This document shows, piece by piece, positions 28,611 to 40,773 of a stretch of 52,392 nucleotides of DNA. The position numbers and the translations under genes were made by a program. The notes beneath the pieces are model-generated. The model searched no databases, was not told where the DNA came from, and saw only the letters and a list, made by a program, of their open reading frames with translations. Source of the DNA: a virus; the IMG/VR virus record IMGVR_UViG_3300037502_000790, positions 1-52,392 of that record; one strand, 5' to 3'. Numbering within the stretch: position 1 is the stretch's first letter; each line of letters begins with the position of its first letter.

Positions 28611-28908
28611 AGCTGGAGCCTCAACCCCCGGGTGATGCACTTCGTGGTCCCGTGCCCCTAGGAGTACGTATGCATACCCCCTGTATACACATTCATCCGA
28701 CTCGTAATGAGTAGAACCCCTAGTGTTTTCAATGCTTCTCAGGGTAACTGTGCTGAATTTGTGCGGATAAACCTACCCCGCGGCACAGTCTGGTGCGTCT
28801 TTTATGGAGAACTCGGACTCGCGTGCGTATTCCCCCGTAGTTTTCATTGATTTTTTCCCAACTGACTCCTCCCTCCGTTCCCCTCCTTAGGAACTGACAC
28901 ATCGGGCC

Positions 28909-28939
28909 CTGCCCCTTCACTCATCGTGAAAGGGGGCAG
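28909..28939 (+). promoter_or_regulatory. Leader hairpin with TTCAC/GTGAA core (copy 1 of 3)
   Basis: Stem CTGCCCC-TTCAC, loop TCATC, GTGAA-(AG)-GGGGCAG, followed by a pyrimidine-rich stretch, an 8-T run and AAGGAG before the 28987 start. Similar hairpins precede 31118 and 32994. Could be a weak terminator, attenuator or processing site. Confidence 0.55.
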
Positions 28940-28986: not shown

Positions 28987-29313
28987 ATGACTCTGCAACT
29001 CAAACCTATCACTCCTGCACAACACGGTCGTATCCAAGCCCTGATGGACCGTGGACTCGTAGCCGGTTCCATCCCAGAGACATCGTGGGAAGCTTCTTGC
29101 GTAATTCGCAACGCTCCTGCATCCAAGCGTGACAAGGATGTCTTGAAGAACAAGGGTGGTCGGGTCTTAGCACGTATGACTTCATCCGAGGTAGAGATGA
29201 CTTCCAAGGTAGTGGAAGCTCTTGCTCTCATCGATGGTGCTGGTATCAAGAACGCGAAGGTACTGGAAGGCGCCATGATCCTACGTTCTATGTTCTGTTC
29301 TAAGGCTCAGTAA
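28987..29313 (+). CDS. First accessory gene, unknown (108 aa)
   Basis: ATG at 28987 with CTAAGGAG upstream. Helical: QHGRIQALMDRGLVAGSIPE, then a basic stretch (ASKRDKDVLKNKGGRVLARM) and TSKVVEALALIDGAGI. No recognised domain. It is followed by a terminator and precedes the tandem RNA hairpins. Strong ribosome site and hairpin leader suggest high expression. Confidence 0.75.
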   Translation: MTLQLKPITPAQHGRIQALMDRGLVAGSIPETSWEASCVIRNAPASKRDKDVLKNKGGRVLARMTSSEVEMTSKVVEALALIDGAGIKNAKVLEGAMILRSMFCSKAQ

Positions 29314-29336
29314 TCTCTCTTACGTCTTAGGCATAC

Positions 29337-29370
29337 GCGGGAGCGCTTGTTCAAAGGGTTTCCCGCTTTT
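29337..29370 (+). terminator. Rho-independent terminator
   Basis: Stem GCGGGA (29337-29342) with TCCCGC (29361-29366) followed by TTTT, 23 nt past the 108-aa gene. The loop is long (18 nt) so strength is uncertain. Confidence 0.65.
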
Positions 29371-29386
29371 AACCCCTTATCAAAAT

Positions 29387-29463
29387 CCTAAGGTCGCTAG
29401 CTCAAGCTAGGTAAATCCTTAGGTCGGCGGGAGGTCGCCAGCTCAAGCTGGGTAAATCCTCCT
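29387..29463 (+). ncRNA. Two tandem hairpins with compensatory changes
   Basis: Copy 1: CCTAAGG-TCG-CTAGC-TCAA-GCTAG-GTAAAT-CCTTAGG (29387-29423). Copy 2: GGAGG-TCG-CCAGC-TCAA-GCTGG-GTAAAT-CCTCC (29430-29462). Both outer and inner stems change by compensating pairs, while the internal loop (TCG / GTAAAT) and the TCAA loop are identical. Covariation within one locus is strong evidence for an RNA structure. It lies after a terminator and directly before five small membrane-protein genes, so it may be a leader element. I do not recognise the family. Confidence 0.6.
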
Positions 29464-29496
29464 TGCCGCTATCTAACCACTTATCAGGAGAGCAAC

Positions 29497-29595
29497 ATGA
29501 GCACAACACTCAAGATCGTTTGGTTCGCTGGCTTCATCTCGCCAATCGTCCTTGGCTGGATCTTGGCGAAGCTCTTCGGTGGCCCAACAGACTAA
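29497..29595 (+). CDS. Miniature membrane protein 1 (32 aa)
   Basis: ATG at 29497 with CAGGAG upstream, TAA at 29593-29595. Product MSTTLKIVWFAGFISPIVLG..., one membrane segment and a short polar end. First of five consecutive tiny membrane-protein genes, each with its own ribosome site. Function unknown. Confidence 0.62.
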   Translation: MSTTLKIVWFAGFISPIVLGWILAKLFGGPTD

Positions 29596-29605
29596 GGAGA
29601 ACAAC

Positions 29606-29683
29606 ATGTCAATCGACTTCATCCTCGCAGGTTCCTACTTTGTAGCAATGGCTTACCTTGCAATTCTGTCAATGATCAACTGA
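29606..29683 (+). CDS. Miniature membrane protein 2 (25 aa)
   Basis: ATG at 29606 with AAGGAGA upstream, 10 nt after the previous stop; TGA at 29681-29683. Product begins MSIDFILAGSYFVAMAYLAI, essentially one hydrophobic helix. Confidence 0.58.
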   Translation: MSIDFILAGSYFVAMAYLAILSMIN

Positions 29684-29693
29684 GGAGAACAAC

Positions 29694-29786
29694 ATGGAAG
29701 ACCGCACACTCGTAGCAATCGCGATGGCATTCCTTGGCGCATGTATTGGAGCGCTGGCTGGATTCATCCTCATCATCCTGATCTAG
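29694..29786 (+). CDS. Miniature membrane protein 3 (30 aa)
   Basis: ATG at 29694 with GAGGAGAAC upstream; TAG at 29784-29786. A polar start (MEDRTL) is followed by one membrane helix (VAIAMAFLGACIGALAGFIL). Confidence 0.6.
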   Translation: MEDRTLVAIAMAFLGACIGALAGFILIILI

Positions 29787-29794
29787 GAGGTCGC

Positions 29795-29866
29795 ATGTTC
29801 GAAGCACTCATCTTCATCGGCTGCGTTGCCTTGATCGGTATCGCATTCATCGGATTCTTTGACTAG
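29795..29866 (+). CDS. Miniature membrane protein 4 (23 aa)
   Basis: ATG at 29795 with TAGGAGGTCGC upstream; TAG at 29864-29866. Product begins MFEALIFIGCVALIGIAFIG and ends Phe-Phe-Asp; nearly the whole peptide is one hydrophobic helix. Confidence 0.58.
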   Translation: MFEALIFIGCVALIGIAFIGFFD

Positions 29867-29875
29867 GAGATCAAC

Positions 29876-30073
29876 ATGAATCGTCTCGAAACACTCGCAA
29901 TGCTTGTCTTGTCAGTACTGGTCTACGTATTTGCTCTTTACTGCGGCATGAAGCATCTCATCTCAGCATGGACAATGTTTGCTACCGCAATGTTCGGAGT
30001 CTTCTGTGGCGTCTACTCATCCTTTCGCATCATCACCGCGTTTGATGTTGACTCCCGATATCAGTCTGGCTGA
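29876..30073 (+). CDS. Small membrane protein 5 (65 aa)
   Basis: ATG at 29876 with TAGGAGATCAAC upstream. Two hydrophobic segments (LAMLVLSVLVYVFALYCGM; WTMFATAMFGVFCGVYSSF) and a short polar tail. Last and longest of the miniature membrane series. A shared gene-start sequence suggests duplication or co-regulated expression. Confidence 0.7.
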   Translation: MNRLETLAMLVLSVLVYVFALYCGMKHLISAWTMFATAMFGVFCGVYSSFRIITAFDVDSRYQSG

Positions 30074-30093: not shown

Positions 30094-30157
30094 GCCGGGG
30101 TTCTTCGGAGCCTCGGCTTTATTAAAAACTTCGGAGCGGCAGGACTGCCAGCCTCCG
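30094..30157 (+). terminator. Terminator hairpin and second hairpin
   Basis: GCCGGGG (30094-30100) pairs with CCTCGGC (30111-30117) and is followed by TTTATT: a terminator after the miniature membrane genes. A second hairpin, CGGAG-C-GGCA-GGAC-TGCC-AG-C-CTCCG (30132-30157), follows and precedes the next gene. Confidence 0.7.
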
Positions 30158-30986: not shown

Positions 30987-31001
30987 CTGATCGTTCCGTG
31001 C
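30987..31001 (+). repeat. 15-mer CTGATCGTTCCGTGC (copy 1 of 3)
   Basis: Identical copies occur at 36258-36272 and 36908-36922. The latter two lie in different genes in different reading frames, so protein coding does not explain the identity. Possible regulatory site. Confidence 0.6.
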
Positions 31002-32993: not shown

Positions 32994-34472
32994 ATGACGA
33001 GCATCTATAGCTACGCTCGCCAGAAGCTCAACGCTACTGGTTTCGGGCGTGATGTATTCCTCGATCTGCTTCTCAAGCGCACGATCAAATCAGTGTCAAT
33101 GACCGGTGGCAGGAACATTGGCAAGAACAAGTGGCTTGGGTTGATCGACGCTCTGGTTGCAACAGACCCAGAGAAGTACGGCGGAGTCCTATCCGATCTG
33201 GACGGTAGGCTGCATAAGTATGAGCGCACCCATAAGCGGGGCTGCTTGCGTATGTATTTCTTAATAGATTACATCAGACGCGACCGAACAGGAGAAGATC
33301 GTCTCAACGCTATGCAGCTGATCAAAGACTGGTTCCCCAAGTTCGACGCGCAAGAACAATCCGAGTGGATCCTGTCTGTTGCAAGAAATCACAACGTGTA
33401 CAAAGCAGACTGCGGTCACTTCACTACGGATACCTACACTCTTAGGGGTACTGACGAAGATGTCTTCGCTCACAGCACGGTGTGCCACGCCTGCTCTCAG
33501 GATCTGATCAACAGCGGCGTCAGGACTTTCGACAACAACGGCGAGATGGTCCTGTCTCGATACGCGGTATCTGCGTTCATGCATGGTCAGAGCACACGCA
33601 CCTTTGACCGTCGCAACAGCCACATTATGTACGACGAGCGTCGCCAGATCTGGTATGTGCAAGGCTGGTCTCCGTATCAAGGTCTGATCGACAGCTACCA
33701 CAGTTCAAAGAACAAGGGCTTTAACGTCATTGATTCTCAGTGGCTGCGGTCCAATCGCCGTGCGTTCGGCTGCGAACTCGAGGTCGAGGTTGTATCTGGC
33801 GAGCCGTACTTAGCAGCTGGTCGCGTCCACGATCTGCTCAATCCATCTGGGGTGGTCGGCGAGTACTGCTACTTCGAGCGCGACGGATCCATTGGCAATG
33901 GCTTTGAGCTGGTCACCCAGCCTGCTGGCCTAGACGTACATCGAGAGAAGCTCGCCCTGTTCCTGAATGACGGCAACGTCAAGAAAGGCATGCGCTCACA
34001 CGAGGGCGGTCGCTGCGGCTTCCATGTCCACGTGGGTAGGGAATACGTCACACAGTCCCAGATCTACCGAGTTCAGTCGTTCCTGAATGACGTCCGCAAC
34101 GAGGCGCTGATCAGGTCGATCGCTCGCCGGTACAGCGGTGGTTACTGCCGGATCAAGCACGAGATGGCTAAGTTCTCACCGCACAACAAGAACACGGGCG
34201 AGCGGTACGAAGCACTCAATGTTCAGAACTCCAAGACCATTGAGTTCCGTATCTTCCGTGGGTCCCTTCGGTATGAGTCAATCATGGCAGCACTTGAGTT
34301 CTGCAATGCCGTGCTCGCCTTCTGCACTCCAGGCGTGACTGCCATTCAAGACTTCACATCGATTGGGTTTAAGAAGTTTGTCCTGCTGCGTGAGAACAGA
34401 GAAGACACAAAGTTCTTGCGAAGCTATCTCGCACTGGACGCCAATCATGACAACGAACGCCAAGCAGCATAA
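32994..34472 (+). CDS. GS-like amidoligase (Amidoligase_2 type) with N-terminal Zn site (492 aa)
   Basis: The C-terminal half shows the glutamine-synthetase-like COOH-NH2 ligase motifs: FGCELEVEV (258-266), RDGSIGNGFELVTQP (296-310), CGFHVHVG (341-348) and TIEFRIFRGS (415-424). These build the ATP/metal site in the Amidoligase_2 family, which forms amide or peptide bonds. N-terminal part has a probable zinc site (C140, H142, C164, C167 in DCGHF...VCHACS). Immediately downstream is a class II glutamine amidotransferase, which could supply ammonia. The substrate (peptide, cell wall or virion protein) is not shown. Confidence 0.86.
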   Translation: MTSIYSYARQKLNATGFGRDVFLDLLLKRTIKSVSMTGGRNIGKNKWLGLIDALVATDPEKYGGVLSDLDGRLHKYERTHKRGCLRMYFLIDYIRRDRTGEDRLNAMQLIKDWFPKFDAQEQSEWILSVARNHNVYKADCGHFTTDTYTLRGTDEDVFAHSTVCHACSQDLINSGVRTFDNNGEMVLSRYAVSAFMHGQSTRTFDRRNSHIMYDERRQIWYVQGWSPYQGLIDSYHSSKNKGFNVIDSQWLRSNRRAFGCELEVEVVSGEPYLAAGRVHDLLNPSGVVGEYCYFERDGSIGNGFELVTQPAGLDVHREKLALFLNDGNVKKGMRSHEGGRCGFHVHVGREYVTQSQIYRVQSFLNDVRNEALIRSIARRYSGGYCRIKHEMAKFSPHNKNTGERYEALNVQNSKTIEFRIFRGSLRYESIMAALEFCNAVLAFCTPGVTAIQDFTSIGFKKFVLLRENREDTKFLRSYLALDANHDNERQAA

Positions 34473-34507
34473 CCAATATCAATCAACCAAAGAAAGGAAA
34501 TCTAACC

Positions 34508-35557
34508 ATGTGCATTCTCATTCATCAACCAAAAGACGGATGCTTCGAGTCGGCTCAACTGCAAGACTTTTACAACAAGAACTCCGACGGTTTCGGCGCA
34601 ATCGTGAATCTTGGTAGCGAGGTAATCGTTGTCAAGATGGTTGGCTCATTCAGCGAGATCGAAGATCTGTACTACAACAAGGTCGCATGCCACGAGGCAG
34701 TCATTCACTTCCGAATGAAGACGCACGGCGACATCGACATGGACAACTGTCACCCATACGAAGTGACGCCGGGTCTATGGATGGCGCACAACGGTATCTT
34801 GGCTACCGGCAATCATGCCAACCCCAAGATGTCAGACACTTGGCATTACATCAACGACTACCTAAAGCCTTTGCTTACTCTTAACCCAGATCTAATCAAG
34901 CAGGAAGCTTTCCTGAAGATGGTCGGCGGTCACATCGGCGGCAGCAACAAGTTTGCGTTCATGAATCAGCAGGGCGAATGCTTTATCGTGAATCGCAATA
35001 GTGGTATCGATCACAACGGTATGTGGTATTCCAACACTTATGCTTGGACACCTTGGAAGTTTGGCTATGGCAACCCGCCTGCGCCCGTGTCCTACCCAAA
35101 GTATGACCACACCAAGTACGCCACCAGCCCTACGTGGCGTGAGTGGGATGCCATCGATCGCCGTGAGCAACTCGCGCTGGACTACAAGACCAGCAAAGTC
35201 AAGGCTAAGCCAAAAGCAAAGCCACGCAAAAAGTCCCCGCTTGCGCCAGCGCTAGGAACTTTGACCACTTCGCAGATGCGCCGCTTGGTTCGCTCAAGCT
35301 ACAACAGCCTGATGCTGGAGGACTACGACGGTGTGCTGCGCTGGGCAGTTGATCACCCAATGAAAGCATCTCACTTTATCTATGAGCTGTTGGGCAACGA
35401 GAACGACAAGCACTACTCATCGGAAGCAATCTGCGACAAGGTTGCCAACGATCCAGACTGGGCCGCAGAAACCATCATCGATCTCTGGGTTGACATGGAA
35501 GATGTACTGATGGACTTAGGCGGCATTGAACAACCCAAACAAGGAGCACAAGCATGA
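34508..35557 (+). CDS. Class II glutamine amidotransferase (349 aa)
   Basis: Begins MCILIHQPKDG: Cys2 becomes the N-terminal nucleophile after Met removal, as in GATase class II (Ntn hydrolases). EAVIHFRMKTHGD, MAHNGIL and GSNKFAF match substrate-binding elements of this fold. Residues about 230-245 are a basic linker (KVKAKPKAKPRKKSP), and the C-terminal helical domain (about 260-349) is not recognised. It hydrolyses glutamine to give ammonia and is next to a GS-like amidoligase, the expected acceptor. Confidence 0.88.
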   Translation: MCILIHQPKDGCFESAQLQDFYNKNSDGFGAIVNLGSEVIVVKMVGSFSEIEDLYYNKVACHEAVIHFRMKTHGDIDMDNCHPYEVTPGLWMAHNGILATGNHANPKMSDTWHYINDYLKPLLTLNPDLIKQEAFLKMVGGHIGGSNKFAFMNQQGECFIVNRNSGIDHNGMWYSNTYAWTPWKFGYGNPPAPVSYPKYDHTKYATSPTWREWDAIDRREQLALDYKTSKVKAKPKAKPRKKSPLAPALGTLTTSQMRRLVRSSYNSLMLEDYDGVLRWAVDHPMKASHFIYELLGNENDKHYSSEAICDKVANDPDWAAETIIDLWVDMEDVLMDLGGIEQPKQGAQA

Positions 35558-35995: not shown

Positions 35996-36487
35996 CTAAT
36001 GTTGCATTAACGTAGTGTTTGAAGCATCTAACCACTCCCATAGACCGTCCATGAGTCTATCTTGTACCGGTGCCAAGACTTCAGCCAGTTCTCTCCTGAA
36101 CTTCCATGCCTTATGCTGAGTCATTCCCGTCAGCTCACTGACATCGCGCACCGACTTCCCTAATAACGCATCACGTAACTGTTTCTTTGACAATCCGTAT
36201 TTGCCCAGCCTTTCGGCATGCTTCCTAATCAATAGCGCGGCAGCGAGGCGACGTTCCCTGATCGTTCCGTGCAAGTAAAAGGCGTACAGCTGTTCGTCTT
36301 CTGGCCTTCTGCTTAGGAAGTTGAAGATCATTCCCACCTGTGCATGCAGATCGTACTGCGTCAGCCGATCACTGGTACTCTCGTTGTCTGTCTTGTTGGC
36401 TATGTATGTAGCCGATGGGATACTGATGACCGCACTTGATCTCATGCGAAAGGCGAAGGCAAGCGCCTGATCGGGTGACCTAAACAT
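35996..36487 (-). CDS. HTH regulator, possibly antitermination-like (163 aa)
   Basis: ATG at 36487 with GGGGACAGG upstream. The C-terminal part has an HTH-like element (SVRDVSELTGMTQHKAWKFR). The N-terminal half is helical and unassigned. It is the last gene of the replication block, a position often taken by late regulators such as Q-type antiterminators. Function inferred from position. Confidence 0.68.
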   Translation of the reverse strand: MFRSPDQALAFAFRMRSSAVISIPSATYIANKTDNESTSDRLTQYDLHAQVGMIFNFLSRRPEDEQLYAFYLHGTIRERRLAAALLIRKHAERLGKYGLSKKQLRDALLGKSVRDVSELTGMTQHKAWKFRRELAEVLAPVQDRLMDGLWEWLDASNTTLMQH

Positions 36488-36752: not shown

Positions 36753-37156
36753 ACTGCCCTCCGATATATCCAAGCGAACGCATCCATCGACACCTCAGCC
36801 GTCCAGATCAACCCATCCTCACCAGCCCACCTATCCTGAACATCATTCAGCCTGACCCTAACTCGCCACTCTCTCCGATCTTCGCGCATGAAGAGGACCG
36901 GGCGGCGCTGATCGTTCCGTGCTTGAACGACTGTCTGCGCCCAAAAAGATTCGATGTCAGCAGGTAGGATCTTGGCGTAGCGCTTGACCTCTGGCGCCCA
37001 ACCATTCAGCCCTGAGATGTCGTACCCACCGTCTCGTGTCTGCTCAAGGTTCCGCTCAAGCTTATCGGTCAGCTCAGGCAACACCCGCTTGAGTTCACCG
37101 ATTAGCTCGCGCTCTCCCGCACTACCTTTGGTTCTACTGTTAATCTTCTTCTTCAT
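36749..37156 (-). CDS. PDDEXK Holliday junction resolvase-like nuclease (135 aa)
   Basis: Starts MKKKINSRTKGSAGERELIG, the N-terminal signature of phage resolvase-like PDDEXK proteins. The nuclease core is GYDISGLNGWAPEVKRYA: Asp, then Glu-x-Lys at the expected spacing. These enzymes resolve branched DNA before packaging. ATG 37156 is chosen over the longer open frame because the motif starts there. Confidence 0.82.
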   Translation of the reverse strand: MKKKINSRTKGSAGERELIGELKRVLPELTDKLERNLEQTRDGGYDISGLNGWAPEVKRYAKILPADIESFWAQTVVQARNDQRRPVLFMREDRREWRVRVRLNDVQDRWAGEDGLIWTAEVSMDAFAWIYRRAV

Positions 37157-40600: not shown

Positions 40601-40773
40601 AGCACGTTTCCTCTACGGAGCCAGACATGCACCCGACAGACTTGCGCTCACGGGGATCTATCTTCGCCACCCCTGTCCTTCTTCCCGAGCTAACCCACAG
40701 TAAGGACTCTTGATGGTTACGCTGCCGTTGGTTTACCCCGACCATAACCACGCAATCATTTCTGATGTGATGA

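Follow-up and report, generated by a model that had tools for sequence, protein, structure and literature searches.

A candidate RNA module of two tandem hairpins in the operons of uncultivated phages

To our knowledge, few cis-acting RNA modules of phages are known outside the lambdoid group. The put RNAs of HK022 (putL and putR) are ~70-80 nt long and consist of two adjacent stem-loops with internal bulges; the put sites lie in an early operon of this temperate phage, and putR, ~270 nt beyond the start site of PR, thus comes after cro, the first gene of its operon (PMC9378689). Tandem structured elements of other kinds have also been described, among them the pan motif, whose stems are broken by conserved unpaired bases and which usually occurs in tandem upstream of operons, and the STAXI motif, which comprises tandem structured repeats near mobile-DNA genes (PMC2864571). 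Here we describe an element of two hairpins in a 52,392-base stretch of DNA (the window), which is the whole virus record of an uncultivated bacterial virus. Judged from its relatives in other contigs, we take the element to be a real structured RNA module of one phage clade that had not been listed before.

The tandem element and its genomic setting

The window encodes a head-tail adaptor/portal protein, TerL (43-46% identical to the TerL of Pelagibacter, Methylophilales, and Burkholderia phages), a TOPRIM primase-helicase, ERF, and a tyrosine integrase, and from the presence of the integrase we infer a temperate lifestyle. The two hairpins, 82 nt together, lie at positions 29387-29468 (+), between the first gene of a run on the plus strand and five small ORFs. 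The features of the locus are as follows.

28987-29313 (+): gene for a 108-aa orphan protein, upstream of the element in every case; conserved across 23 viral loci
29337-29366 (+): hairpin after the 108-aa gene, followed by TTTTAA
29387-29423 (+): hairpin unit 1, with a 7-bp outer stem, 5-bp inner stem, and 4-nt loop (from sequence and fold)
29394-29396 (+): unit 1 internal loop, 5' side, TCG; invariant in 8/8 sequences
29411-29416 (+): unit 1 internal loop, 3' side, GTAAAT; invariant in 8/8 sequences
29424-29424 (+): linker, one unpaired T; invariant in 8/8 sequences
29425-29468 (+): hairpin unit 2, with a 10-bp outer stem containing one bulge, 5-bp inner stem, and 4-nt loop (from the fold and RNAalifold of 8 sequences)
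29435-29437 (+): unit 2 internal loop, 5' side, TCG; invariant in 8/8 sequences
29452-29457 (+): unit 2 internal loop, 3' side, GTAAAT; invariant in 8/8 sequences
29497-30073 (+): five small, mostly hydrophobic ORFs (23-65 aa) downstream of the element (29497-29595, 29606-29683, 29694-29786, 29795-29866, and 29876-30073)
30094-30123 (+): strong terminator-like hairpin with a UUCG loop, further along the operon than the element

In each hairpin, a TCG/GTAAAT internal loop separates the outer stem from the inner one (in unit 1, CCTAAGG TCG CTAGC TCAA GCTAG GTAAAT CCTTAGG), and the spacing between the two units is exactly 41 nt. A first-pass annotation had already proposed two hairpin copies here, and both sequence and fold agreed with it on their place and on the start at 29387; its end point of 29463 fell short, since unit 2 runs 5 nt further, to 29468, with an outer stem that extends beyond GGAGG/CCTCC via CGGCG/TGCCG and includes one bulge. 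The compensating stem differences that it had reported between the copies were borne out as well: the inner stems differ by one pair changed on both sides (T-A to C-G), and several outer-stem pairs have other bases in the two copies yet remain paired. The pattern TCG-N5-TCAA-N5-GTAAAT had exactly two matches in the 52 kb window, both within the tandem element. The fold energy of the 96-nt stretch was -39.5 kcal/mol compared with -25.3 ± 3.1 kcal/mol for dinucleotide shuffles (z = -4.6), and none of 1000 shuffles was as stable.

Tested as intrinsic terminators, neither hairpin of the element was followed by a U-run in any of the eight sequences. A terminator had been said to precede the element, and a hairpin is indeed found there (29337-29366); the terminator scan did not call it, and the label is doubtful because the U-run is short here and missing in several relatives (L052, L054, L055, L056, and L058). 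The location ahead of five miniature membrane-protein genes was correct for the window but did not hold as a general layout. The element precedes the first mini-ORF in the window, L003, L011, L013, and L002, and lies further down the operon in L006, where it follows a 28-aa ORF, and in L034, where it follows two ORFs, giving three gene-relative positions overall. Every copy is intergenic and points with the genes (sense), and in L002, L006, and L034 long spacers or terminators stand between the element and the next start codon. Hiding of a ribosome site, considered on account of the resemblance of CCTCCTT to an anti-Shine-Dalgarno sequence, was rejected as a general function since in these three loci a long distance separates the element from the next start codon, and a riboswitch was disfavoured on the grounds that the downstream gene is not constant and that there is no overlapping expression platform.

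The 108-aa protein has 34 invariant columns in 17 homologues, and its structural model is confident and helical (pLDDT 90), with no match in Pfam, PHROG, or PDB or by fold. Its position makes it a possible partner of the element and the obvious candidate for a reading in which the element is a protein-binding site for translational or transcriptional operon control, with a dimeric protein on both hairpins. Two equivalent surfaces 41 nt apart and the constant upstream location of the gene would suit such an arrangement, and the pan motif, likewise made of tandem bulged stems, has been proposed to bind a dimeric protein (PMC2864571). We nevertheless consider operon control of this kind unlikely, given that seven relatives have the 108-aa gene without the element, that the predicted fold of the protein has no known relative, and that long spacers or terminators precede the next start codon in L002, L006, and L034.

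Several further features were recorded in the window and its relatives. In 15 related phages, a conserved non-coding stretch precedes the 108-aa gene (28817-28869; CGCGTGCGTATTCCCCCGTAG...TTTTT..AACTGACT); TTTTT and AACTGACT are invariant in it, and it is possibly a promoter or leader RNA. Right before the gene, the arms of a hairpin at 28909-28939 covary among relatives with complementarity kept. An Rfam Betaproteobacteria-1 RNA (83.8 bits) occupies 40631-40752 (-), ~160 nt upstream of the phage primase-helicase gene and in the same orientation. The sequence CTGATCGTTCCGTGC occurs three times in the window (30987-31001, 36258-36272, and 36908-36922), and a similar ATCGCTCCGTGC in relatives comes after terminator-like hairpins. 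At 32994-35557, an amidoligase-like gene was noted and, after it in the same run of genes, a weak match to class II glutamine amidotransferase. In L054 (1957-2000), and in the same place in L055, a very strong terminator-like hairpin (~15 bp, then U8) lies just past the element and adjoins a second hairpin, CCGTAGG..CCTACGG, with z = -6.7; the arrangement is also present in L060, which is without the element.

Homologues and covariation

Pattern scans of IMG/VR and searches with the 108-aa protein converged on one set of uncultivated phage contigs. The tandem was present in L002, L003/L005/L009, L006, L008, L010, L011/L014, L013/L018, L015, and L034, at one copy per phage record, and comprised eight distinct sequences, the window's included, that align in one gap-free register over 96 columns. 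Because the pattern scans demanded the loops, loop conservation was partly selected for; the protein searches made no such demand, and among the relatives that they recovered the element was either intact or wholly missing in the compared locus sequence. Homologous loci with unconserved stems, which the first-pass annotation had named as evidence against its proposal, were sought and none was found. Strict and looser loop patterns in IMG/VR matched only this phage clade, the rest being chance matches, and the element was unmatched among annotated phages, plasmids, and bacterial genomes. Likewise, cmscan against Rfam 15 at the family gathering threshold, run on the window and on 29300-29520, matched no family to the element, and the earlier suggestion of a new motif is thus in keeping with both Rfam and the annotated phages. 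Thirteen single matches in a scan of bacterial and archaeal genomes had no tandem or inner stem and were judged to be chance, and a group of loci with GGTCGAAGGTTCAATAATAGTAAATCC (L001, L004, L007, L012, L016, and L017) was rejected for having no inner stem. A search of 399 genomes of one order with the 108-aa family and the model was empty, a result that shows little, as this order need not be that of the host.

Given the alignment of the eight sequences as its sole input, RNAalifold returned the proposed fold, with 27 pairs, seven of them changed on both sides (in the numbering of alignment A2, 8-44, 10-42, 11-41, and 19-30 in unit 1 and 47-88, 50-84, and 62-69 in unit 2). Paired cells amounted to 95.8% in this alignment. 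Two-sided cells numbered 12 as against 3.9 in shuffles, and the covariation score was 0.208 versus 0.119 ± 0.017 when shuffled (0/500 shuffles as high), figures that come from only eight related sequences, among which covariation counts can beat shuffles even without structure. When the partners were slid by 1-3 columns, pairing dropped to 20-62%. Inspection by eye revealed that the unit 1 stem of L006 is restored with a one-base bulge and that the unit 2 inner stem of L034 is rebuilt from different bases, so that some of the cells counted as broken are probably paired after all. The L034 variant also suggests a pair between the C of TCG and the G of GTAAAT, with T then facing TAAAT, and the G-U pairs seen at 50-84 are consistent with the sense strand.

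Chance or low-information hairpins inherited by common descent would be a natural reading of sequences that are few and related, yet seven pairs carry two-sided changes and the element is conserved above the neighbouring gene, with flanks that are poorly alignable, and we regard such an origin as extremely improbable. The structural selection claimed in the first-pass annotation is upheld by eight distinct homologous tandems that keep the fold through these changes, and in our judgement the element is very probably a selected RNA-level module.

Gain, loss, and probable exchange of the element

The 108-aa gene occurs without the element in the compared sequence of L047, L049, L058, L059, L060, L061, and L075, and in L047 and L049 the flanks are like those of element-bearing relatives with the element missing. 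At this site L047 reads TTTTAACCCGTTATCAGGAG, and L003 has TTTTAACCCGTTATCAAAAT, the element, and then TACTTATCAGGAG, a difference that could reflect either an insertion with a short duplication or a deletion between TTATCA repeats. Mapped onto the 108-aa protein tree, the distribution of the element requires five changes, at least three of which are forced by well-supported branches. In 34 of 36 pairs, identity was higher for the element than for the adjacent gene (mean of 88% vs. 74%, with flanks at ~67%). L052 and L046 share 98% of the element and 68% of the gene, whereas between L052 and its gene relatives the gene is 82-84% identical and the element only 80-84%. Because element and gene relationships conflict in this manner, the element has probably been exchanged between lineages, a conclusion that is suggestive at a length of 82 nt. 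A leader RNA would not usually be exchanged as a unit irrespective of the genes beside it, as this element appears to be.

REP/IS200-IS605 hairpins and integron attC sites are imperfect hairpins with conserved unpaired bases and show block-wise gain and loss, and the element could be a small mobile or exchanged DNA cassette of this type, its hairpins read as single-stranded DNA with no RNA role. Its presence or absence as a block, with at least three gains or losses, would fit, as would the conflicting L052/L046 relationships and the TTATCA that flanks some filled sites on both sides and occurs once at the L047 empty site. However, the TTATCA repeats accompany some copies only, the orientation is always sense, and the exchange is also achievable by ordinary phage recombination; furthermore, the many copies at unrelated sites that mark REP/IS200-IS605 hairpins were not seen, each phage having one copy and the bacterial, plasmid, and annotated-phage collections none. 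A DNA cassette is therefore quite improbable in our view. Other inserts were observed in the same slot in L042 (4100-4215) and L060 (6375-6460), with TAACGGGAG..TAGCT..GTGGCAA in common; only these two matched the TAACGGGAG insert pattern in IMG/VR, and they folded no better than shuffles. Because the element combines a clear covariation signature with natural variants and natural empty alleles, its function is testable by simple reporters.

Candidate function and comparison with known systems

A cis-acting transcript module was preferred over a single-gene riboswitch because the shape of the element is kept, it is always sense, it is indifferent to the next gene, and it can be lost. The best explanation overall, which we advance tentatively and with somewhat less than even confidence, is an 82-nt sense RNA module that acts in cis through put-like antitermination. 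The structured 82-nt RNA would be made within the sense-strand transcript of the phage operon, where its twin internal loops may serve as the recognition surface for a factor binding nascent RNA; the folded RNA, by itself or together with a protein of host or phage, would remain on RNA polymerase, which would thereby pass the terminator hairpins studding the operon, and the module would act on the whole downstream transcript rather than on a single gene. As the element's job, put-like antitermination is a first choice made with comparable or slightly greater reserve, because of the downstream terminator-like hairpins and the put-resembling architecture. A strong terminator-like hairpin was found downstream in 8 of 8 element-bearing loci (0.8-3 kb scanned), mostly with genes beyond it, and in L054 and L055 it begins ~45 nt past the element. 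Against antitermination, L047, L049, and L060, which are without the element, keep the same kind of downstream terminators, and the element is therefore not essential for terminator passage. No sigma-70 promoter-like site was detected close upstream of the element.

Next after antitermination we place a role in setting or protecting an mRNA end. A host nuclease or RNA-binding protein would recognise the twin hairpins, yielding a stable 5' end of the mini-ORF message or a protected 3' end of the upstream gene, and the sense, intergenic location near small ORFs, the stability of the two hairpins (z = -4.6), and the independence from the following gene are all compatible with this role. We rate it as rather unlikely, however, since the invariant internal loops in both units exceed the needs of a generic stability hairpin, and since half-stems of 7+5 and 10+5 bp are shorter than the stems of classical RNase III processing signals.

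Compared with REP/IS200-IS605 hairpins and attC sites, the element is non-repetitive, not in bacterial chromosomes, and always sense, and its outer stems are without the attC core sequence. A STAXI unit is a pseudoknot that often has a UUCG loop, and three units are usually present, whereas the element has plain hairpins, exactly two of them, and no Rfam match. The pan motif has two conserved bulged A residues per stem and stands before bacterial pan genes in pantothenate operon leaders, whereas the internal loop here is TCG/GTAAAT, and cmscan gave no Rfam match that would place the element in the pan family. In HK022, model R1 with filters off found nothing in the PL-nun or cro-cII intervals, where the put sites lie, and gave one weak antisense match elsewhere (E = 0.037); thus the element is not a put homologue. 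HK022 put, which lies downstream of an early promoter and suppresses termination through the zinc-binding domain of the RNAP beta-prime subunit, is also without twin identical TCG/GTAAAT loops, and unlike put the element is missing from close relatives. More specifically, the element may represent a new, horizontally exchanged family of phage antiterminator RNA whose two hairpins share the same internal loop, which has no sequence kinship with HK022 put, and which uncultivated podovirus-like phages carry as an interchangeable cassette, a proposal that we consider possible though doubtful. The likeness to HK022 put, itself ~73 nt long (PMC9378689), is one of architecture: 82 nt folded into two adjacent stem-loops, both bulged and set apart by a single unpaired base.
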